From positions 161,463-209,035 of the forward strand of contig AOIR01000055.1 of NCBI GenBank assembly GCA_000337115.1: DNA of 47,573 bases, read 5' to 3'. Numbering within the stretch: the first letter of the stretch is position 1; every line of letters begins with the position of its first letter. This DNA comes from Natrinema thermotolerans DSM 11552. Lineage in GTDB: Archaea > Halobacteriota > Halobacteria > Halobacteriales > Natrialbaceae. The notes beneath the pieces are model-generated. The model ran no database searches. It was not told the origin of the DNA and was given only the letters and a program-made list of their open reading frames with translations. Both the position numbers and the translations under genes were made by a program. Shown one piece after another: positions 30,699-42,248 of the stretch.

Positions 30699-32132
30699 AT
30701 GACTGACGCCGCGGCTTCGGTGCCCGTCCGCCGCCTCTCCGACTGGGACGCGGCCGAACTACACACGCTCGTCGAGGACTACGGCTCGCCGCTGTACGTC
30801 CTCGATCTCGAGCGGGTCCGGGAGAACTACCGCCGCCTCGAGACCGCCTTTCCCGACGCCGAGATCCTGTACGCGGTGAAAGCCAACGCGCTGGGGGACG
30901 TTCTCTCGACGCTCCACGAGGCGGGGGCGGGCCTCGAGTGTGCCTCCGCCGGCGAGGTCCAGCGCGCGCTCGAGGCGGGCGCGGCCGGGTCGGAGATCCA
31001 CTACACGGCGGTCAACCCGCCGGCGCGGGATCTCGACTGGATCGTCGACGCCTGGGCCGACGAGCCGGAGCTGACCGTCACCGCCGGCTCCGCGGACACG
31101 ATCGATCGCCTCGAGGAGCGCGGCTACGATGGGCGGCTCTGTCTGCGGGTGAATCCGGGGATCGGTGCGGGTCACCACGAAAAGGTCAAAACCGGCGCGG
31201 CCGCGAAGTTCGGTATCCCCGCCGAGCGGGCCGTCGACGTGCTGACCGACGCCGCCGACCGCGGCTTCGACGTCGTCGGGATCCACGCCCACGTCGGCTC
31301 CGGCGTCTCGAGCGACCAACTCGAGGCCCACCGGGAGTTCGTCGCGCGGATGGGTGATCTCGCGCGGGACGTGAGCGAGGCGCTACGCGCCTCGGATAGC
31401 CGAACGGGGAGCGAAGCGACTCGTGAGGCGCGCGAGGCCGTCGGCGGCCTCGAGTTCGTCGACGTTGGCGGCGGCTTCGGGGTGCCCTACCGCGAGGACG
31501 AGGCCCCGCTGGATCTCGAGTCGGTTGCCAACGCGACCCGCGAGGCGCTAGGTGACGTCGACGCCGACCTGACGATCGAGCCCGGCCGCTACTTCGTCGC
31601 GGACGCGGGCGTGTTGTTGACCGAAGTGAACACGGTCAAGGAAGCCCGCGAGACGACCGTTACCGGCGTCGACGCCGGGATGACGACCCTGCTCCGGCCG
31701 GCGATGTACGACGCCTACCACCCGATCCGAAACCTGACCGCCGAGACGGCGGGCGACGGCTCGAGCGATCGCGATGCGACCGACGGCGCCGGGCGCGAGA
31801 TCGTTCCGCAGACCGTCGCCGGCCCCATCTGCGAGAGCGGCGACGTTTTCTGTGCCGAGCGTGAACTACCGGCAAGCGAACGTGCGGACATCCTCGCGAT
31901 CGGCAATGCGGGGGCCTACGGCTACGAAATGGCGAACCAGTACAACACCAGACCTCGACCCGCGTCGATCGTCCTCGCGGACGGCCAGGCGCGACTCGCC
32001 CGCCGTCGCGAGACGGTCACCGACGTGACCCGCCCCGAACGCGAGGCGCGGGGCGTCTCGGATACCTCGAGCGATGCGAGGCGCGACCGAAGTGAGCGCC
32101 TCGATGAAGGAGCGGGGCGGAACGACCCGTGA
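30699..32132 (+). CDS. lysA: Diaminopimelate decarboxylase (with inserted and appended palindromic segments)
   Basis: A 477-residue PLP-dependent decarboxylase making lysine from meso-DAP. The PLP Lys61 is in YAVKAN, the HAHVGSG motif lies near residue 205 and the VDVGGGFGVPY motif near 255. A glycine-rich phosphate site and the late CESGDVF catalytic-Cys motif are intact. Two oddities stand out. Residues ~225-245 (between GDLARD and AVGGLEF) are an extra Arg/Ser/Ala-rich stretch whose DNA holds a GAGGCGC/GCGCCTC hairpin. Residues ~453-477 are an Arg/Asp-rich tail whose DNA holds the same heptamer pair. The ATG at 30699 is chosen over one ten codons upstream. No coupling to vapC is visible, so it may have its own promoter. 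Confidence 0.94.
   Translation: MTDAAASVPVRRLSDWDAAELHTLVEDYGSPLYVLDLERVRENYRRLETAFPDAEILYAVKANALGDVLSTLHEAGAGLECASAGEVQRALEAGAAGSEIHYTAVNPPARDLDWIVDAWADEPELTVTAGSADTIDRLEERGYDGRLCLRVNPGIGAGHHEKVKTGAAAKFGIPAERAVDVLTDAADRGFDVVGIHAHVGSGVSSDQLEAHREFVARMGDLARDVSEALRASDSRTGSEATREAREAVGGLEFVDVGGGFGVPYREDEAPLDLESVANATREALGDVDADLTIEPGRYFVADAGVLLTEVNTVKEARETTVTGVDAGMTTLLRPAMYDAYHPIRNLTAETAGDGSSDRDATDGAGREIVPQTVAGPICESGDVFCAERELPASERADILAIGNAGAYGYEMANQYNTRPRPASIVLADGQARLARRRETVTDVTRPEREARGVSDTSSDARRDRSERLDEGAGRNDP
31371..31433 (+). repeat. GC palindromic segment inside lysA (in frame)
   Basis: GAGGCGC (31377-31383), a TAC loop and GCGCCTC (31387-31393), followed by GGGAGCGAAGCGACTCGTGAG. The composition matches haloarchaeal intergenic hairpin repeats rather than the flanking lysA codons. 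The same heptamer pair and a similar follow-on recur at 32078-32135. Confidence 0.5.
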
Positions 32133-32140
32133 GCGAGTCA
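32071..32140 (+). repeat. Related GC palindromic segment at the lysA 3' end
   Basis: GAGGCGC (32078-32084) and GCGCCTC (32096-32102) flank an 11-base spacer, then GGAGCGGGGCGGAACGACC and CGTGAG. It encodes the last 20 or so residues of LysA and crosses its stop codon. It has the same layout as the internal segment at 31371-31433. Confidence 0.5.
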
Positions 32141-32229
32141 CTGCGAGAGCGCGAGGCGAGCGATACTGCACCGGCGGATCGAAAGAACGACCACGACCGA
32201 GCGACCGACACCGACAACGACCAAGTACG

Positions 32230-33060
32230 ATGAGCGTCCCATTCCAGAAGTACCACGGCACCGGCAACGACTTTCTAATCATCCAGGCTGACGAGTACGT
32301 CCCCAATCGGGGTGCGCTCGCCGAACGCGAGTGCGACCGCGACGACGGCGTCGGTGCCGACGGGATCCTCTATCTCGCCCTCGAGGAGCGGTTCAACCCG
32401 CCCCGCGTCGTGATGACGCTGGTCCAGCCCGACGGCGCGACCGCGCCGATGTGTGGCAACGGCGCGCGCTGTGCGGCCGACTGGGCCATGGATCGGACCG
32501 GGGCCGACAGCGTCATGATCGACACGCAGGCCGGCACCCTGCGCGCGGACCGGACCGACGACGGGATCATCATCGAGATGGGGACCCCGACGTTCGATCC
32601 CGAGGAGGTCCCCGTCAGGGCCGACGAACCGGTCTTCGAGGAGGAGATCGAAGGCCTCGAGGTGACGATGGTCAACACCGGCGTTCCCCACGCCGTGAGC
32701 TTCGTCGACGACGTCGACGACGTCGACCTCCAGACCGTCGCGCCGCGGGTCCGCTATGCCGACGCGTTCCCCGTCGGGACGAACGTCACGATCGCCAGCC
32801 CCGACGGCGAGGGCGGCTTCGACCAGCGGACCTACGAACGCGGCGTCGAGGACGAGACCGACTCCTGTGGCACCGGTGCGGTCGCCATCGCGGTCGTCGC
32901 GCGGCGGCTCGGACTGACCGACGCCGATCCGGTCGAGGTCCGACCGCCGGGCGGGGACCTGCAGGTGAGCTTCAACGACCGGGGGAACGCGACGCTCGCC
33001 GGCCCCGTCGAACACGAGTTCGACGGCGAGGTAGCCGTCCGATCGCCGACCGAACTGTGA
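32230..33060 (+). CDS. dapF: Diaminopimelate epimerase
   Basis: A 276-residue PLP-independent epimerase converting LL-DAP to meso-DAP. Both catalytic cysteines are present: Cys75 in MCGNGARCAA and Cys213 in DSCGTGAVAIAV. The N-terminus MSVPFQKYHGTGNDFLI is the family hallmark and fixes the start at 32230; in-frame sequence upstream to 32074 is repeat-derived. It lies 97 bp after lysA and 13 bp before dapE. Confidence 0.96.
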   Translation: MSVPFQKYHGTGNDFLIIQADEYVPNRGALAERECDRDDGVGADGILYLALEERFNPPRVVMTLVQPDGATAPMCGNGARCAADWAMDRTGADSVMIDTQAGTLRADRTDDGIIIEMGTPTFDPEEVPVRADEPVFEEEIEGLEVTMVNTGVPHAVSFVDDVDDVDLQTVAPRVRYADAFPVGTNVTIASPDGEGGFDQRTYERGVEDETDSCGTGAVAIAVVARRLGLTDADPVEVRPPGGDLQVSFNDRGNATLAGPVEHEFDGEVAVRSPTEL

Positions 33061-33073
33061 ACGGGAGCCATCG

Positions 33074-34243
33074 ATGAGCGGGGACGAGCCGACCGCGAGC
33101 GGCCCCGACGGCGACGGCGAGTTCGACCCCATCGCGTTCCTCGAGACGGCGGTCCAGCACGCCTCCCACGAGGACGTCGGCCCGATGCGAGCGTTCCTCC
33201 GTGAGACGCTCGAGACCCACGGGGTCGACCCCCGCGTCGACGACGCCGGAAACGTGCTGGCGAGTCGCGGACCGCCGGCGGCCGACGCCGACAGCCACGT
33301 CGTGTTGAACACCCACATCGACACGGTCTCGCCCCACGTCCCTTACGAGCGCGACCCGGATGCGCCCGAGACCGACGGCGGCGAGGTGATCCGCGGACGG
33401 GGCTCCTGTGACGCGAAGGGACCGCTCGCGGCGCTGTTGTCGGCCTTTTTCGCGGTCGAGCCGACCGATGACCGCGTCACGCTCGCGGTCACCCCCGACG
33501 AGGAAATCCTCTCGACGGGCGCGTACGCGCTCGTCTCCGGCGAGGCGTCGCCCATCGCAGACGCCGACGCCGTAATCGTCGGCGAACCGACCGACCTCGA
33601 CGTCTGTACGGCCGCCAAGGGCCGGTTCCAGGGAACGATCCACCTTTCGGGTGCCAACGCCCACGCTGCCGAACCCGAGACCGGAACCAATGCCGTCGCC
33701 GCCCTCGAGGGCGTCCTCGAGGCGGTCCGGACCTTCGGCGAGCGCGCCGACGCGCCGCCGACCCATCCGCAACTCGGTGCGGCGACGCTGACCCCGACCG
33801 TCGTCGAGGGCGGTGAGGCGACGAATCAGGTGCCGGCAGACGCCGCATTGACCGTCGACCGCCGGAGCGTCCCCCCGGAGACGGCCGACGAGTTCCACGA
33901 AGCGCTGACCGCGCACCTGCGGGCCGCCGTCCCCGACGATGTCGACCTCGACTTTCGCTTTACCGACCGACCGACGCCGTTCCTCGAGGCCTGGGACACC
34001 GATCCCGACGCGCCGGTTGCGCGAACGCTTGCGGACGCCGCTGGCGGCGAGATCCGACCGTTCACCGCGGCGACGGAAGCGTCCTACTTCGCCGCCGACG
34101 CCCCGACGGTCGTCTTCGGTCCCGGCGTCCTCGCCGACGACGAGGGGGCCGTCGCACACGCGCCACGGGAGTACGTGCGGCTCGAGGCCGTTCGGAAGGC
34201 TGCCCGAGCGCTCGAGGCGACGCTATCGGAACTGGTCGAATAG
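33074..34243 (+). CDS. dapE: Succinyl-diaminopimelate desuccinylase (M20 family)
   Basis: A 389-residue M20 metallopeptidase-fold enzyme. Metal-site segments are VVLNTHIDTVSPH near residue 80, GSCDAKGPLAALL near 111 (bridging Asp) and TPDEEILSTG near 140 (catalytic Glu-Glu). The lid domain follows. By sequence it could also be a LysK- or ArgE-type deacylase, but its place 13 bp after dapF in a cluster with dapD makes succinyl-DAP the likely substrate. It completes the DAP set here except for the aminotransferase, which must be supplied from elsewhere. Confidence 0.9.
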   Translation: MSGDEPTASGPDGDGEFDPIAFLETAVQHASHEDVGPMRAFLRETLETHGVDPRVDDAGNVLASRGPPAADADSHVVLNTHIDTVSPHVPYERDPDAPETDGGEVIRGRGSCDAKGPLAALLSAFFAVEPTDDRVTLAVTPDEEILSTGAYALVSGEASPIADADAVIVGEPTDLDVCTAAKGRFQGTIHLSGANAHAAEPETGTNAVAALEGVLEAVRTFGERADAPPTHPQLGAATLTPTVVEGGEATNQVPADAALTVDRRSVPPETADEFHEALTAHLRAAVPDDVDLDFRFTDRPTPFLEAWDTDPDAPVARTLADAAGGEIRPFTAATEASYFAADAPTVVFGPGVLADDEGAVAHAPREYVRLEAVRKAARALEATLSELVE

Positions 34244-35540: not shown

Positions 35541-36926
35541 TCACTCGAGGTCGTCGACCAACTCGCTCGCCACGCCCGTGTACCCGGCCGGCGTCAGCGC
35601 GCGCAGCTCCTCGCGAACGCTCTCGTCGACCTCGAGGTCGTCGAACATCTCGCGGAAGTCCTCGAGGGTAACGTCTTTCCCACGAGTCACGGCCTTGACG
35701 CGCTCGTAGGCGTCTTCCTGTCCCTCGCGCCGGAGGACCGTCTGGACGGCCTCGCCGATGATCTCGGGGGTGGCCTCGAGGTCGTCGCGCATGACCTGCT
35801 CGTTGGGGACGACTTTCGAGAGCCCCGATGCGGTCTTCCCGTAGGCGATCAGGCAGTGGGCGAAGGCCCCGCCGATGTTTCGCTTGACCGTCGAGTCCGA
35901 GAGGTCCCGCTGGAGCCGGGAGGTGGTGACGTAGTCCGCGAGGAAGGTCAGATCCGAGTTCGCTTTCGAGAGGTTCCCCTCGCTGTTCTCGAAGTCGATC
36001 GGGTTGACCTTGTGGGGCATCGTCGACGACCCCGTCTCGCCCTCGACGGCCTCCTGTCCGAGGTAGCGATCGGAGACGTAGAGCCACATGTCCAGATCGA
36101 GATCGAGCAGAACGTCGTTGGCCCCGCGGAACGCATCGAACAGCGCCGCGAGGTCGTCACAGGGGTTGACCTGCGTCGTGAGCGGTTCGAACTCGAGGCC
36201 CAGTTCCGTGACGAACGCCTCGGCGAAGTCCTGCCAGTCGACGTCGGGATAGGCGGCGACGTGGGCCGCGTAGGTACCCGACGCGCCGCCGAGTTTGCCG
36301 CGCAGATCGTCGGTCGCTTGCCGGATCCGGCCGGTCGCACGACCCAGCCGCGAGGCGTAGACGGCCATCTCCTTGCCGAAGGTCGTCGGCGTCGCTGGCT
36401 GGCCGTGGGTCCGGGCCAGCATCGGGAGGTCGCGGTAGTCGCGAGCCATCTCGGCCAGCGTGTCGCGGACGCCGTACAGTTCGGGCAGCAACACCCCGTC
36501 GACGGCGTCGCGGACCAGCAGCCGATGGGCGAGGTTGTTCACGTCCTCGCTGGTCAGCCCGAAGTGGATCCACGCTGAAGCGTCGCTGCCCTCGGGCAGT
36601 CGGTGGCGCACGAAGTACTCGACGGCCTTGACGTCGTGGTTGGTCGCCTCGAAGCCGGCGTGGCCCTCGGTCTCGAGTTTCTTGATCAGTTCGGCGTCCT
36701 CCTCGGCGAAGTGCTTGTAGAGCCCCCGTAGCTCCTCGCGTTCCTCGAGGCCGAGTTCCAGCGGCGTCGCCTCGAGGTCGGCGAGCGCGATCAGGTACTC
36801 GACCTCGACGCGAACGCGGGCCCGCATCAAGGCGGCCTCGCTCGCGTACGGCGACAGTGGTGCGGTCCGTCCGTCGTACCGGCCGTCCAGCGGCGAGACG
36901 GCGTACAGGGCGTCGGTATCGGTCAT
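35541..36926 (-). CDS. purB: Adenylosuccinate lyase
   Basis: A 461-residue fumarase/aspartase-superfamily enzyme. The signature GSSTMPHKVNPIDFEN near residue 270 contains the flexible catalytic loop. The N-terminal LYAVSPLDGRYDGRT is typical of PurB, and the TSEDVNNLAH and RTHGQPATPTTFGKE motifs are intact. It releases fumarate from SAICAR and from adenylosuccinate, two steps of purine synthesis. The ATG at 36926 is chosen over one 17 codons upstream. It is divergent from the purN-purH fusion gene, and a large palindrome lies between the two. Confidence 0.96.
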   Translation of the reverse strand: MTDTDALYAVSPLDGRYDGRTAPLSPYASEAALMRARVRVEVEYLIALADLEATPLELGLEEREELRGLYKHFAEEDAELIKKLETEGHAGFEATNHDVKAVEYFVRHRLPEGSDASAWIHFGLTSEDVNNLAHRLLVRDAVDGVLLPELYGVRDTLAEMARDYRDLPMLARTHGQPATPTTFGKEMAVYASRLGRATGRIRQATDDLRGKLGGASGTYAAHVAAYPDVDWQDFAEAFVTELGLEFEPLTTQVNPCDDLAALFDAFRGANDVLLDLDLDMWLYVSDRYLGQEAVEGETGSSTMPHKVNPIDFENSEGNLSKANSDLTFLADYVTTSRLQRDLSDSTVKRNIGGAFAHCLIAYGKTASGLSKVVPNEQVMRDDLEATPEIIGEAVQTVLRREGQEDAYERVKAVTRGKDVTLEDFREMFDDLEVDESVREELRALTPAGYTGVASELVDDLE

Positions 36927-37025
36927 TGTGCGACTCTTTCCAGCGCGGTGCAAAAGCGTATCGAAACCGCGACCCACACAGGGCCACGAGCGTGCATATC
37001 TCGAGCGGCCGACTCGGAAATACTA

Positions 37026-37056
37026 CCGGAATAATACACGGCCGTGCATATTCCGG
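37026..37056. promoter_or_regulatory. 31-bp nested palindrome between purB and purNH
   Basis: Outer arms CCGGAATA (37026-37033) and TATTCCGG (37049-37056) enclose the perfect inner palindrome CACGGCCGTG (37037-37046). In addition, GTGCATAT occurs twice in direct orientation (36992-36999 and 37044-37051). The site is about 48 bp before the purNH ATG and about 100 bp before the purB ATG. A regulator binding between two divergent purine genes is inferred. Confidence 0.55.
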
Positions 37057-37103
37057 GGATCGAGACCGCAACGGCTTTGCCCCTCGCGGGCGGGCATCCG
37101 ACC

Positions 37104-38741
37104 ATGACGCGAATCGCCGGGATGGCCGGCAACCGAGGGCGCAACCTGTTGAACATCGCCGACCGAGCGCCGGGCGGGGCCGCGTTCGCCGTGATCCTCG
37201 CGACCGATCCGGACGCACCGGTGCTGGAGGGCGCGGCCGAGCGCGGGATCCCGACCGAAGTCGTCCCGCTCGAGGACGACATGGACCGCCGCGATCACGA
37301 GGAGGCGGTCCTCGAGGCTCTCTCGGACTACGAGTTCGACCTCGTCTGTCTGGACGGCTACATGCGGATCCTCTCGGAGACGTTCCTCGAGGAAGCACCC
37401 ACCACGCTGAACGTTCACCCCGCCCTGTTGCCGTCGTTCCCCGGCATGGACGCCTGGGGCGACGCGCTCGAGGCGGGCGTCTCCGTCACGGGCTGTACGG
37501 TCCACGTCGTCACGGACGCGACCGACGAGGACGGCGCGGTCGTCGAGGACGATGTCGACGCCGGTCCGATCGTCACGCAGGAGCCGATCCCGGTCTACGA
37601 GGGCGACGACGAGGCCGACCTCAAAGAGCGGGTTCTCTACGAGTGCGAGTTCCGCGCCTACCCGCGGGCGGTCAAGTGGTTCGCCGAAGGTGCAGTAGAC
37701 GTCGACCTCGAGGCGGGCGAGGTCACCGTCGATGCTGACGTGGCCGGCGTCGACGACGCCGATCACGATGGCTTGCCGAGTCGGCGCGTCGTCTCGGACG
37801 ACCGCGCGGACACGCTCCGCTACGGGGAAAACCCCCATCAGGATGCGGCAGTCTACACCGACTACACCACCGACGAGGCCAGCGTCGTCCACGCCGACCA
37901 GTTGAACGAGGGTGCGAAGGGACTCTCGTACAACAACTACAACGACGCCGACGGCGCCCTGAACCTCATCAAGGAGTTCGACGAGCCCGCAGCAGCGGTC
38001 ATCAAACACACCAACCCGGCGGGCTGTGCGACTGCCGACTCGCTCTCGGACGCGTACGAAAAGGCCCTCGCGACGGACCCGATGAGCGCCTTCGGCGGCA
38101 TCGTCGCGCTCAATCGGGAGTGTGACGCCGCCACCGCGGAACAGATCATCGACTCGTTCAAGGAAGTCGTCGTCGCACCCGGTTACACCGACGACGCTCT
38201 CGAGGTCCTCTTCGAGAAGGACAACCTGCGCGTGCTGGACGTGGGCGAACTGGGCGAGCGGACCGAGCGCTTCACCGAGAAGCCGCTGGTCGGCGGTCGA
38301 CTGGTCCAGGAACGCGACCTCCAGTCGATCTCGGTCGACGACCTCGAGGTCGTCACCGAGCGCGAGCCCACGGACGAGGAACTCGAGACGATGGTCTTCG
38401 CGTGGCAGACCCTGAAACACGTCAAGTCCAACGGCATCCTCTTCGCCGACGGCACGGAGACGGTCGGTATCGGCATGGGGCAGGTCTCCCGCGTCGACGC
38501 GGTCCGGCTGGCGGCGATGAAGGCCGACGAACATGCCGAGGGCAAGGACGCCGAGGGCGCGGTGATGGCTTCGGACGCCTTCTTCCCGTTCCCGGACGGG
38601 ATCGAGGAGGCCGCCGAAGCGGGCATCGAGGCGGTGATCCAGCCCGGCGGCTCGGTCAACGACGAGGACGTGATCGAGGCCGCGGACGAACACGGGATGG
38701 CGATGGCGTTTACGGGTCAGCGGTCGTTCCGGCACGATTAG
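37104..38741 (+). CDS. purH: Bifunctional PurN-PurH fusion: GAR formyltransferase / AICAR formyltransferase
   Basis: A 545-residue fusion. Residues ~1-205 are a GAR-transformylase (PurN) domain with the catalytic triad Asn103 and His105 (LNVHPALLPSFPG) and Asp152 (DAGPIV). Residues ~225-545 are the AICAR transformylase half of PurH, with catalytic Lys301-His302 (IKHTNPAGC) and the C-terminal FTGQRSFRHD. The IMP cyclohydrolase half of bacterial PurH is missing, so the last step must be done by another enzyme such as archaeal PurO. It covers two formyl-transfer steps of purine synthesis on one chain. ATG 37104 is chosen over an in-frame GTG at 37044 that lies inside the palindrome. The 3' end of the gene is partly repeated at 38847-38886. 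Confidence 0.94.
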   Translation: MTRIAGMAGNRGRNLLNIADRAPGGAAFAVILATDPDAPVLEGAAERGIPTEVVPLEDDMDRRDHEEAVLEALSDYEFDLVCLDGYMRILSETFLEEAPTTLNVHPALLPSFPGMDAWGDALEAGVSVTGCTVHVVTDATDEDGAVVEDDVDAGPIVTQEPIPVYEGDDEADLKERVLYECEFRAYPRAVKWFAEGAVDVDLEAGEVTVDADVAGVDDADHDGLPSRRVVSDDRADTLRYGENPHQDAAVYTDYTTDEASVVHADQLNEGAKGLSYNNYNDADGALNLIKEFDEPAAAVIKHTNPAGCATADSLSDAYEKALATDPMSAFGGIVALNRECDAATAEQIIDSFKEVVVAPGYTDDALEVLFEKDNLRVLDVGELGERTERFTEKPLVGGRLVQERDLQSISVDDLEVVTEREPTDEELETMVFAWQTLKHVKSNGILFADGTETVGIGMGQVSRVDAVRLAAMKADEHAEGKDAEGAVMASDAFFPFPDGIEEAAEAGIEAVIQPGGSVNDEDVIEAADEHGMAMAFTGQRSFRHD

Positions 38742-39481: not shown

Positions 39482-39565
39482 ATGACAGCGACGGGAGCCG
39501 CCGATCGAACCGCGAGCGCCGACGCCGGTCCGCGACCGCGCGCCGCCCGGGGTGGACAGACGTGA
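39482..39565 (+). CDS. Possible 27-codon upstream ORF overlapping the glycerate kinase start
   Basis: The ATG at 39482 opens a 27-codon frame (MTATGAADRTASADAGP, then Arg/Pro-rich) that ends at TGA 39563-39565. Its stop overlaps the GTG start of the kinase as GTGA. TTTTAGCC at 39452-39459 lies 26-30 nt upstream, where a leaderless start would be expected. Thus the transcript may begin at this ATG, and the kinase may be reached only by translational coupling. Whether the peptide is stable is unknown. Confidence 0.35.
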   Translation: MTATGAADRTASADAGPRPRAARGGQT

Positions 39566-40890
39566 TCGAGGACCGCGACCGACTCGCCTCGAGCGAGGCC
39601 CGCGAGGCCGCGCTCGCCTGCGTCGAGGCCGGCATCGAGGCGGGCCATCCACGCACTGTCGTCCGCGAGGCCGTCTCGCTCGCGGGCGAGACCCTCCGCG
39701 TCGCCGACGCGACCTACGACCTCAGTGCGTACGACGAGGTCCGCGTCCTCGGCGGCGGCAACGCCGCGGCCCACGTCGCCGCGGCGCTCGAGGACGTCTT
39801 GGGCGACCGGCTCGACGGGGGCGTGGTTGTCACTGACGACCCCGTCGAGACGGACCGCGTGACGGTCCGCGAGGGCGACCATCCGACGCCGAGCGAGCGC
39901 GGGGTCGCGGGAACGCGGGCCCTGCTTTCGGCGGCCGACGCGGCGAGCGAGGACACGCTCGTGCTGGCGGCGATCACCGGCGGCGGGAGCGCGCTCATGG
40001 CCGCGCCCGCCGGCGACGTGTCGCTGTCCGATCTGCAGTCGACGACTGATGCCCTTCTCGAGAGCGGGGCCGACATCGGCGAGATCAACGCGGTCCGCAA
40101 GCATCTCTCGGCGCTGAAAGGCGGCCGACTGGCCCGCCGGGCCGCCCCCGCGCCGGTCGCCGGCGTGATCCTCAGCGACGTGGTCGGGAACGACTTGAGC
40201 GTGATCGCCAGCGGCCCGGTCGCCCCCGACGCGTCGACGTTCGACGACGCGCTCGCCGTTCTCGAGCGCTACGGGATCGACGCGCCCGATGCCGTCCGCG
40301 AGCGCCTCGAGCGCGGCGCGGCCGGCGAGATCGCCGAGACGCCCGGGGCGGACGACCCGGCGTTCGAGCGCGTTTCGAATCACGTCGTCGCCGACGGGAT
40401 GACCGTCCTCGAGGCCGCACGGGACGCGGCGATCGAACGGGGGTACGAGCCGCTCGTCCTCTCCTCGCGCGTTCGCGGCGAGGCCCGCGAGGCGGCGACG
40501 ACCCACGTCGCGATCGCGGAGGAGATCCGGGCCACCGGGACGCCGCTCGAGCCGCCGGCCGTGATCCTCTCCGGCGGCGAGACGACGGTGACGGTCCGGG
40601 GCGACGGGTCGGGCGGGCCGAACCAGGAGTTCGCGACGAGCGCGGCGCTGTCGCTCGCGGAGCGGGAAACGGACGTCGCGGTCGCCGCGGTCGACACCGA
40701 CGGCATCGACGGCGCGACCGACGCGGCCGGCGCGCTGGTGGACGAAGCGACCGTCGAGGACCCCGATGCGGCGCGGGCGGCGCTGGCCGACAACGACGTC
40801 TATCCGTATCTCGAGTCCAGAAATAGCCTCGTTTGCACGGGGCCGACGGGCACGAACCTGAACGACCTGCGGGTACTGGTCGTCCGCTAG
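39562..40890 (+). CDS. Glycerate 2-kinase (MOFRL/DUF4147 family)
   Basis: A 442-residue type II glycerate kinase. The N-terminal DUF4147 domain has VLGGGNAAAHVAAALED, an EGDHPTPSERG loop near 110 and AITGGGSALMAAP near 132. The linker INAVRKHLSALKGGRLAR leads to the C-terminal MOFRL domain (SGGETTVTVRGDGSGGPNQEFA, DTDGIDGATDAAGA). It phosphorylates D-glycerate with ATP to 2-phosphoglycerate, for example in sugar or glycerate breakdown. It starts with GTG. Its stop codon interlocks with that of the converging GntP permease gene, which may import glycerate or gluconate. Confidence 0.92.
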   Translation: MIEDRDRLASSEAREAALACVEAGIEAGHPRTVVREAVSLAGETLRVADATYDLSAYDEVRVLGGGNAAAHVAAALEDVLGDRLDGGVVVTDDPVETDRVTVREGDHPTPSERGVAGTRALLSAADAASEDTLVLAAITGGGSALMAAPAGDVSLSDLQSTTDALLESGADIGEINAVRKHLSALKGGRLARRAAPAPVAGVILSDVVGNDLSVIASGPVAPDASTFDDALAVLERYGIDAPDAVRERLERGAAGEIAETPGADDPAFERVSNHVVADGMTVLEAARDAAIERGYEPLVLSSRVRGEAREAATTHVAIAEEIRATGTPLEPPAVILSGGETTVTVRGDGSGGPNQEFATSAALSLAERETDVAVAAVDTDGIDGATDAAGALVDEATVEDPDAARAALADNDVYPYLESRNSLVCTGPTGTNLNDLRVLVVR

Positions 40891-42248
40891 AAGGCCAGTC
40901 CCGCGACGTTTCGGAGGACGACGATCCAGACGATACTCGAGAGGCCGAGTACCAGCGTCGCGAGCGTCCAGGCCTGGTAGGCCGTCGACGTCTCCATGTC
41001 GGTGAACTCCGTGATGATCCAGAAGTAGGAGTCGTTGGCGTGGCTGACGGTCATGCTGCCGGCCCCGATCGCGAGAACGGTGAAGACCTTGCCGATCTCG
41101 GTGTTCAGGCCCAGCGAGCCAAGCAGCGGCGCGACGAGCCCCGCCGTCGTCAGGATCGCGACCGTCGAGGAGCCGAGCGCGGACTTCATCGCCGCGGCGA
41201 CGACGAACGCGGCGAGCAGGCCGATACCGAGCCCGCCCAGCGTGTCGGTGATGAAGTTCTCGAGGGGCAGCGCCGAGAGGACCTCGCCGAACGCGCCGCC
41301 GGCGCCGGTCACCGCGAGGATGACGGCGGCGTTTTTGATCCCGTCGGAGACCCACTCGTCGGTCACGTCGCTGGTGAAGTCGGGCACGATCGCGAAGGAG
41401 ATGAACGCGCCGATGATCAGCGCGACGGCCGGATCGCCGAGGAACAGCAGCCAGCGCTGGAGCGTTCCAGTGATCAGTTCCGGGTTCTCCGCTTCGGGGT
41501 AGGCGGCGATCGAGCCGACGGCGATCAGTGCGATCGGCACGAGCAGCGGGGCGAACGATGCCGCACGCGAGGGCATCGACCCGTACTCGGCTTTGATCTC
41601 CTCGATCGTCATCTCGGGGTTGGGGTCGATGTGGTAGTTCGAGGCGACCCTGTCGGCCCACGTCGCGGCGACGAAGACGATGGGGGCACTGACGATGAGT
41701 CCGGCGAGCATGACGAGACCGATGTCCGCGCCGATGATCCCGGCTGCGGCGATCGGCCCCGGCGTCGGCGGCACGAAGACGTGCGTGACGTAGAGCCCGC
41801 CCGCGAGCGCGACGCCGAGCGTCGACAGCGAGAGTCCCGATCGCTCGGCGAGCGACCGGTTCAGACCCGAGAGAATGACGAACCCGGAGTCACAGAACAC
41901 CGGAATCGAGACGATGCTTCCCGTGATCGCCATCACCTGCGTGGTGTACTCCTCTCCGACGTAGTCCAGTACCGTCTCCGCGATGACGATGGCGGCACCC
42001 GAGCGCTCGAGGCAGGTGCCGATGATCGTCCCGGCGACGATGACGATCCCGATGTAGCCGAGGATGCCGCCAAAGCCGTCGGTCACGAGCGAGGCGACCT
42101 CCGCGGGATCGAGCCCCGCAGCGAGACCGGTCAGGTAGGCGGCGATCAGCAGTGCGAGGAACGCGTGCAGATCCAACTTCGCCGTGGCGACGATGATAAA
42201 GGCCACCGCCGCGGCGAGCAACAGTACCAGTGGAAATCCTTCGAGCAT
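40887..42248 (-). CDS. GntP-family gluconate/glycerate:H+ symporter
   Basis: A 453-residue permease with about 12-14 hydrophobic segments. GFGGILGYIGIVIVAGTIIG near residue 60, SIPVFCDSGFVIL near 116 and HVFVPPTPGPIAAAGIIGAD near 157 are GntP hallmarks. Family members import gluconate, idonate or glycerate with protons. Its 3' partner is a glycerate 2-kinase on the opposite strand; their stop codons share the CTAG at 40887-40890. Glycerate or a sugar acid is thus a reasonable substrate guess. The promoter region upstream holds an 11-bp palindrome. Confidence 0.9.
   Translation of the reverse strand: MLEGFPLVLLLAAAVAFIIVATAKLDLHAFLALLIAAYLTGLAAGLDPAEVASLVTDGFGGILGYIGIVIVAGTIIGTCLERSGAAIVIAETVLDYVGEEYTTQVMAITGSIVSIPVFCDSGFVILSGLNRSLAERSGLSLSTLGVALAGGLYVTHVFVPPTPGPIAAAGIIGADIGLVMLAGLIVSAPIVFVAATWADRVASNYHIDPNPEMTIEEIKAEYGSMPSRAASFAPLLVPIALIAVGSIAAYPEAENPELITGTLQRWLLFLGDPAVALIIGAFISFAIVPDFTSDVTDEWVSDGIKNAAVILAVTGAGGAFGEVLSALPLENFITDTLGGLGIGLLAAFVVAAAMKSALGSSTVAILTTAGLVAPLLGSLGLNTEIGKVFTVLAIGAGSMTVSHANDSYFWIITEFTDMETSTAYQAWTLATLVLGLSSIVWIVVLRNVAGLAF

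Follow-up and report, generated by a model that had tools for sequence, protein, structure and literature searches.

The window, a 47,573-nucleotide stretch of DNA from Natrinema thermotolerans DSM 11552, contains two divergent purine genes, purB and purNH, with 177 bases between their start codons. The first encodes adenylosuccinate lyase, whereas the second is a fusion of a PurN-like GAR formyltransferase with the AICAR formyltransferase part of PurH. The PurH part exceeds the cut-off of its profile (NF002049, 412.5 bits, residues 221-544) and the PurN part lies slightly below that of TIGR00639 (145.8 bits against 150.1, residues 3-198). As judged by eye from translations, the locus is flanked upstream by dapF-like and dapE-like genes (32074-34243) and downstream by a glycerate-kinase-like gene and a GntP-like permease (39562-42248). 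The features are as follows.

35541-36926, minus strand: purB, adenylosuccinate lyase (NF006764, 621.8 bits, above the cut-off of 446)
36952-36967, minus strand: putative purB core promoter, GTTTCGATACGCTTTT on the minus strand, leaderless (from the footprint)
36981-36998, unstranded: putative operator copy 1, GGGCCACGAGCGTGCATA, purB-proximal, with a weaker left half (direct repeat and footprint; conserved block 36984-37001)
37026-37056, unstranded: 31-nt palindrome as first noted, its outer arms lineage-private (pattern scans and relatives' spacers)
37033-37050, unstranded: putative operator copy 2, AATACACGGCCGTGCATA, purNH-proximal, the inner part of the 31-mer (footprint, fixed position in relatives and strict-pattern match; conserved block 37034-37050)
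37063-37079, plus strand: putative purNH core promoter, BRE/TATA-like AGACCGCAACNNCTTTG (footprint, read by haloarchaeal promoter rules; conserved block 37061-37079)
37104-38741, plus strand: purNH fusion gene (profile matches)

Architecture of the divergent promoter region

To define the conserved parts of the region, 44 distinct purB-purNH spacers of 176-177 bases were cut from the loci of relatives. Four blocks are conserved: the purB core promoter, operator copy 1, operator copy 2 and the purNH core promoter. Each TATA-like block is found ~27 nt ahead of the ATG, which is the distance expected for leaderless haloarchaeal transcripts, and both transcripts are therefore read as leaderless. 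The two operator copies sit upstream of both core promoters in the same orientation and exactly 52 bp apart, with the center of copy 2 at about -62 relative to the purNH ATG. A conserved AATA block at 37019-37022, upstream of copy 2, is part of neither operator nor core promoter.

A sequence-only reading had drawn attention to a large nested palindrome here, with CCGGAATA and TATTCCGG arms, and to further occurrences of GTGCATAT. The 31-nt element CCGGAATA-n15-TATTCCGG indeed occupies 37026-37056 without mismatch, against an expectation of 0 from 100 dinucleotide-shuffled copies of the window, and GTGCATAT does recur at 36992 and 37044, within a 15-nt direct repeat (CACGAGCGTGCATAT at 36985-36999 and CACGGCCGTGCATAT at 37037-37051, offset by 52 bp). 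The nesting holds in part: both palindromes exist, the inner one being the 10-bp CACGGCCGTG at 37037-37046, but they are not concentric (outer center 37041, inner center 37041.5) and the inner part alone is conserved.

The long CCGGAATA arms are not the defining element. All eight outer pairs are complementary in the Natrinema window only among the 44 distinct spacers, and in the 43 other rows the complementarity of the outermost four arm pairs equals that of shuffled sequence (1.49 vs 1.49). Meanwhile, the first two inner pairs are retained in 43/44 and 41/44 rows, and the inner CAC/GTG is almost invariant. The outer CCGGAATA/TATTCCGG arms belong to the Natrinema genome alone, and it is the inner palindrome, about TATRCACGNNCGTGYATA, that shows conservation across haloarchaea. 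The arms occur nowhere else in the 3.9-Mb genome, even with spacers of 5-25 permitted, and the proposed scan for CCGGAATA-n15-TATTCCGG ahead of other pur genes finds no second place. As the genome has a single copy of the 31-mer, a scan based on its arms would have discarded a true finding.

The pairing of sites is also a general feature of the locus. Using a weight matrix built from Natrialbaceae purNH sites only (57 distinct 18-mers of 75), at least two sites of at least 5 bits were found in 70 of 85 distinct divergent spacers, one site in six and none in nine. The best two sites in those 70 spacers are separated by 52 bp in 46 cases, 53 in 18, 42 in three, and 43, 55 and 86 in one each, so that 68 of the 70 fall at 42/43 or 52/53. 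As 42 bp corresponds to ~4 helical turns and 52-53 bp to ~5, this spacing suggests that two dimers occupy one face of the DNA at paired operators. We confine the statement on phase to spacing within a pair, because the distances to the TATA box at different genes (~21, 36 and 54 bp, judged by eye from printed promoters) share no single phase; a helical phase common to all genes was rejected.

Sites at other purine genes

The idea that the palindrome is an operator for a purine regulator was borne out when the inner motif, rather than the arms, was followed: it is common to other pur promoters and to relatives. In the genome itself, ATRCACGNNCGTGNATA with at most two mismatches occurs at 12 distinct places (18 strand hits vs 7 control strand hits), eight of which lie ahead of purB/purNH, purF, purL, purD, purS/purU, folD, a pbuX-type permease that stands directly after hpt, and another NCS2 permease. 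The other four (L114, L124, L125 and L129) are not at such genes. At L125 (G000:C55:62152) a two-mismatch match falls inside the start of a gene that looks carA-like by eye from its translation, and is probably due to chance. A looser scan with a 16-mer at up to two mismatches in 15 genomes was set aside as too noisy (26/34 strand hits against 10/11 for the control in the genome studied here).

Stricter patterns are more selective. ATVCACGNNCGTGBAT, with no mismatch, gives 13 sites in 10 of 26 haloarchaeal genomes (the genome studied here and 25 others accessed by way of named loci) and none for the control. Twelve of these are ahead of purine-related genes (purS/purU 5, purL 3, NCS2 2, hpt/pbuX 1, purB/purNH 1), and the thirteenth, at position 1501 of L147, has no purine gene nearby and is without explanation. 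Across 125 Natrialbaceae genomes, 53 sites distributed over 40 genomes match the longer TATVCACGNNCGTGBATA, again with 0 in the control. Fifty of them stand ahead of purF (15), purL (15), folD (9), NCS2 (4), purD (4) and purB/purNH (3), and two more lie ahead of purA, bringing the number at regulon genes to 52 of 53. The one without explanation is a perfect site at position 1200 of L302, where no purine gene is nearby and a second TATACACA-type sequence follows ~20 bp further on.

The distance from site to start codon is fixed by gene: 49-50 for purL, 82-84 for folD, 62-63 for purNH, 33-35 for NCS2, 82-84 for purF and 63-64 for purD. At four loci (L117, L138, L140 and L146) the operator region is common to purS and a gene for a PurU-like formyltetrahydrofolate deformylase, which lies close to purS or diverges from it; together with folD, this places one-carbon flow in the purine regulon. 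Other neighbors include an AbrB/MazE-like gene near purD and a Lrp-type gene near purL.

A candidate regulator encoded beside the permease

In Halocatena (L137), the NCS2 permease carrying a strict site is directly preceded by a member of NF006328/PRK08558 that scores 334.2 bits over residues 2-237, above the cut-off of 184. The genome studied here has its own copy:

G000:C63:71860-72567 (locus L151), strand not given: NF006328 family gene (352.4 bits)

Scores over the 53 passing genomes range from 298 to 360 bits, except for one partial match of 224. The family is also present above the cut-off in Haloferax volcanii, and is found in Sulfolobus acidocaldarius. The permease lies directly downstream of the NF006328 gene in 13 of 21 loci.

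The protein has two parts. The N-terminal 75 residues match the Cro/CI-type HTH_3 family in 21 of 21 genomes, with 17.8 bits for the first member (below the Pfam gathering score of 23) and a best E-value of 4e-5 among members, and the segment G38-P50 (GDLNRYVNGHVLP) is invariant in 21 rows. At E<=10 the 21 members together match 12 Pfam families, none of which is the PuR_N winged helix; the speed filters of this search may lose very weak matches. The remainder is a phosphoribosyltransferase (PRTase) domain (Pribosyltran, 36.7 bits, above the cut-off of 26.3), and its PRPP-binding loop, V-D-D-x-x-R-S-G-x-T, is likewise invariant in 21 rows. The closest solved structure is the Bacillus Pur operon repressor (5e-8 with one sequence, 4e-13 with a profile), ahead of adenine phosphoribosyltransferases (APRTs). 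A crystal structure of a Sulfolobus APRT reportedly exists, and none was listed when solved structures were searched by sequence with NF006328. The data point to a regulator, or a bifunctional protein, behind the annotation 'adenine phosphoribosyltransferase'.

The motif is also found ahead of the NF006328 gene itself, at -64 to -67 in 17 of 21 genomes, near -23 in 11, and at either or both in 20, compared with 0 of 21 in a control stretch further upstream of the same promoters. As the -23 site overlaps with the TATA region, the TATA box may contribute to its score.

Protein and operator occur together. NF006328 is above the cut-off in 21/26 and 32/49 genomes or, leaving out the genome studied here, present in 52 and lacking in 22. 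A purNH operator of at least 8 bits is found in 46 of the 52 and in none of the 22; outside Natrialbaceae the figures are 32/38 and 0/21 (Fisher p = 6e-11, kinship ignored). The six genomes that have the protein but fall short of 8 bits at purNH are three Halonotius, Halorhabdus, one Natronomonas MAG and Halegenticoccus tardaugens, the last of which has two ~7-bit sites at the correct places. The same holds at other genes in the 26-genome set, where the matrix built from Natrialbaceae purNH sites alone, at a threshold of 9, detects a site ahead of purL in 17, purD in 15 and purF in 19 of the 21 genomes with NF006328, and in 0/5 for each gene in those without it; the start codon is uncertain for some of the purF and purD genes.

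The absences of NF006328 are clustered in one large Haloarculaceae-type group and a few others. On a PurNH tree its presence changes six times, with at least four changes on starred branches. Across four independent pairs, the operator changes in the same direction as the protein in a mean of 3.7 and in the opposite direction in none, four pairs being too few to reach 0.05. The core promoter does not share this fate, as a CGCAACTACTTTGC-type core is kept in 21 of the 22 genomes lacking the protein.

Halovivax asiaticus (L014), a member of the Natrialbaceae, has lost the HTH-PRTase gene and the operators at purNH, purL, purD and purF. Halorhabdus (L169) keeps the gene and the downstream NCS2 permease with two weak sites 42 bp apart ahead of the gene; despite NF006328, no operator is found ahead of its purNH, purL, purD or purF. 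In this organism the regulon has apparently shrunk to one operon.

Taken as a whole, the comparisons make it likely that the inner palindrome, like its second copy at a distance of 52 bp, serves as an operator in a purine regulon of haloarchaea, with the HTH-PRTase protein NF006328/PRK08558 as the reader. NF006328 could instead be a member of the regulon, given its NCBIfam name of adenine phosphoribosyltransferase and its occurrence in Sulfolobus acidocaldarius too. It would then be only a co-regulated salvage enzyme, bearing an operator as any target would, and another DNA-binding protein would read the site and have been lost along with that site. We regard this as unlikely: an HTH_3-like domain with an invariant G38-P50 segment is present in every one of the 21 members, the nearest solved relative is PurR rather than an APRT, and the sole sites seen in Halorhabdus are those ahead of the NF006328 gene.

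Binding by a known haloarchaeal metabolic regulator, TrmB or GfcR, is very improbable. GfcR is likewise an archaeal HTH fused to a PRTase domain, but it belongs to a separate subfamily and does not track the operator, as GfcR (NF045507) is found in four of the five genomes without operators and is missing from Natronomonas G134, where operators are present; it was rejected as the reader of the site. In the portions of the source available, its role is given as control of sugar degradation (PMC11519228). Deletion of TrmB changes pur gene levels in Halobacterium, according to the accessible parts of two studies (PMC3794607, PMC4540570). However, the motif given there for TrmB of Halobacterium salinarum (TACT-N7-8-GAGTA; PMC3794607) has no exact match on either strand of 36927-37104, and TrmB was rejected on this ground; in the same portions, Todor et al. 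infer a non-TrmB regulator (PMC3794607, PMC4540570). The sequence-only reading also raised an mRNA/DNA cruciform. An mRNA hairpin, attenuator or DNA cruciform without any protein site, for which the perfect 8-bp arms and 10-bp inner palindrome of the Natrinema genome would speak, can be dismissed, since the element lies upstream of both conserved leaderless core promoters, its arms are unconserved, shuffled sequences fold as well as the RNA strand does (z -0.01), Rfam gives no match at the palindrome and the same motif precedes many other promoters.

Proposed mechanism and relation to known regulators

If NF006328 is the reader, a dimer would bind each CACGNNCGTG palindrome through its two HTH domains, and cooperative binding would bring two such dimers, separated by 4 or 5 helical turns, onto the same DNA face. 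The purB/purNH pair stands ~36 bp upstream of each TATA box, and both divergent genes would so be controlled. The PRTase domain would sense purine status through PRPP, or a purine base or nucleotide, with repression when purines are plentiful and release at shortage.

Confidence in this mechanism is lowest for the sign of regulation and for the ligand. We lean towards NF006328 as a repressor because the -23 site covers the TATA region of its own gene, because purD has a second weak site at -21, because protein and operators were repeatedly lost with the core promoter unchanged, and because of the Bacillus precedent. A role as activator is a serious, if somewhat less probable, option, as most sites stand upstream of the BRE, and archaeal sites in that position often mean activation. 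With regard to the ligand, the accessible text of Todor 2015 (PMC4540570) reports that pur genes go up at low purines and low PRPP, which, if the same regulator acts in Halobacterium, would favor a purine co-repressor over PRPP as inducer.

The closest parallel is PurR of Bacillus subtilis (TIGR01743; PDB 1p4a, 1o57), which has a purine regulon and paired PurBoxes. The two systems are alike in the PRTase-fold regulator domain (nearest solved structure, 4e-13), in what looks like a regulon comprising pur genes, folD and purine permeases, and in paired sites upstream of the promoter. They differ in that the L137 protein scores 37.7 bits against TIGR01743, far from the cut-off of 258.7, that NF006328 has a Cro/CI-like HTH_3 with no PuR_N found among its Pfam matches, that the observed operator CACGNNCGTG looks unlike the PurBox consensus, and that the haloarchaeal system has archaeal core promoters. 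The haloarchaeal system would thus work like Bacillus PurR yet lack two PurR features, a TIGR01743 score above the cut-off and the PuR_N domain.

Several earlier observations bear on this reading. In the text available, Brown et al. 2011 (PMC3261824) describe haloarchaeal purB and purH1N as divergent and suggest a shared promoter site. The accessible parts of Todor 2013 and 2015 (PMC3794607, PMC4540570) state that Halobacterium purine genes are held down by purines via an unidentified TrmB-independent regulator, and that no PurR homologue is apparent by sequence. GRE #6 of EGRIN 2.0, linked in the portion available to a purine-enriched corem (PMC4299497), could be the same element as the CACGNNCGTG operator, and in a figure legend (PMC7824242) Apt3 of Haloferax has an NCS2-type permease as its neighbor, which is compatible with the NF006328-NCS2 pair. 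Neither the motif nor an NF006328 regulator was found described in the literature searched, which comprised passages of openly accessible main texts.

The analysis offers both missing halves of the inferred haloarchaeal purine regulation, an operator and a named candidate protein, and genetically tractable hosts are available, with NF006328 above the cut-off in Haloferax volcanii. If the assignment is true, the function given to this family, annotated solely as an enzyme, would need correction, and the system would provide a case in which a regulator and its operators were lost together several times. More tentatively, NF006328 may be a bifunctional archaeal PurR, a purine phosphoribosyltransferase whose Cro/CI-type HTH was gained independently of Bacillus PurR and GfcR, with the whole purine, one-carbon and nucleobase-uptake regulon placed under paired operators 4-5 turns apart. 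A 'salvage enzyme turned purine regulator' would then have evolved more than once, and the system could predate the haloarchaea, because the family is also found in Sulfolobus, with its own divergent purB/purP promoter.
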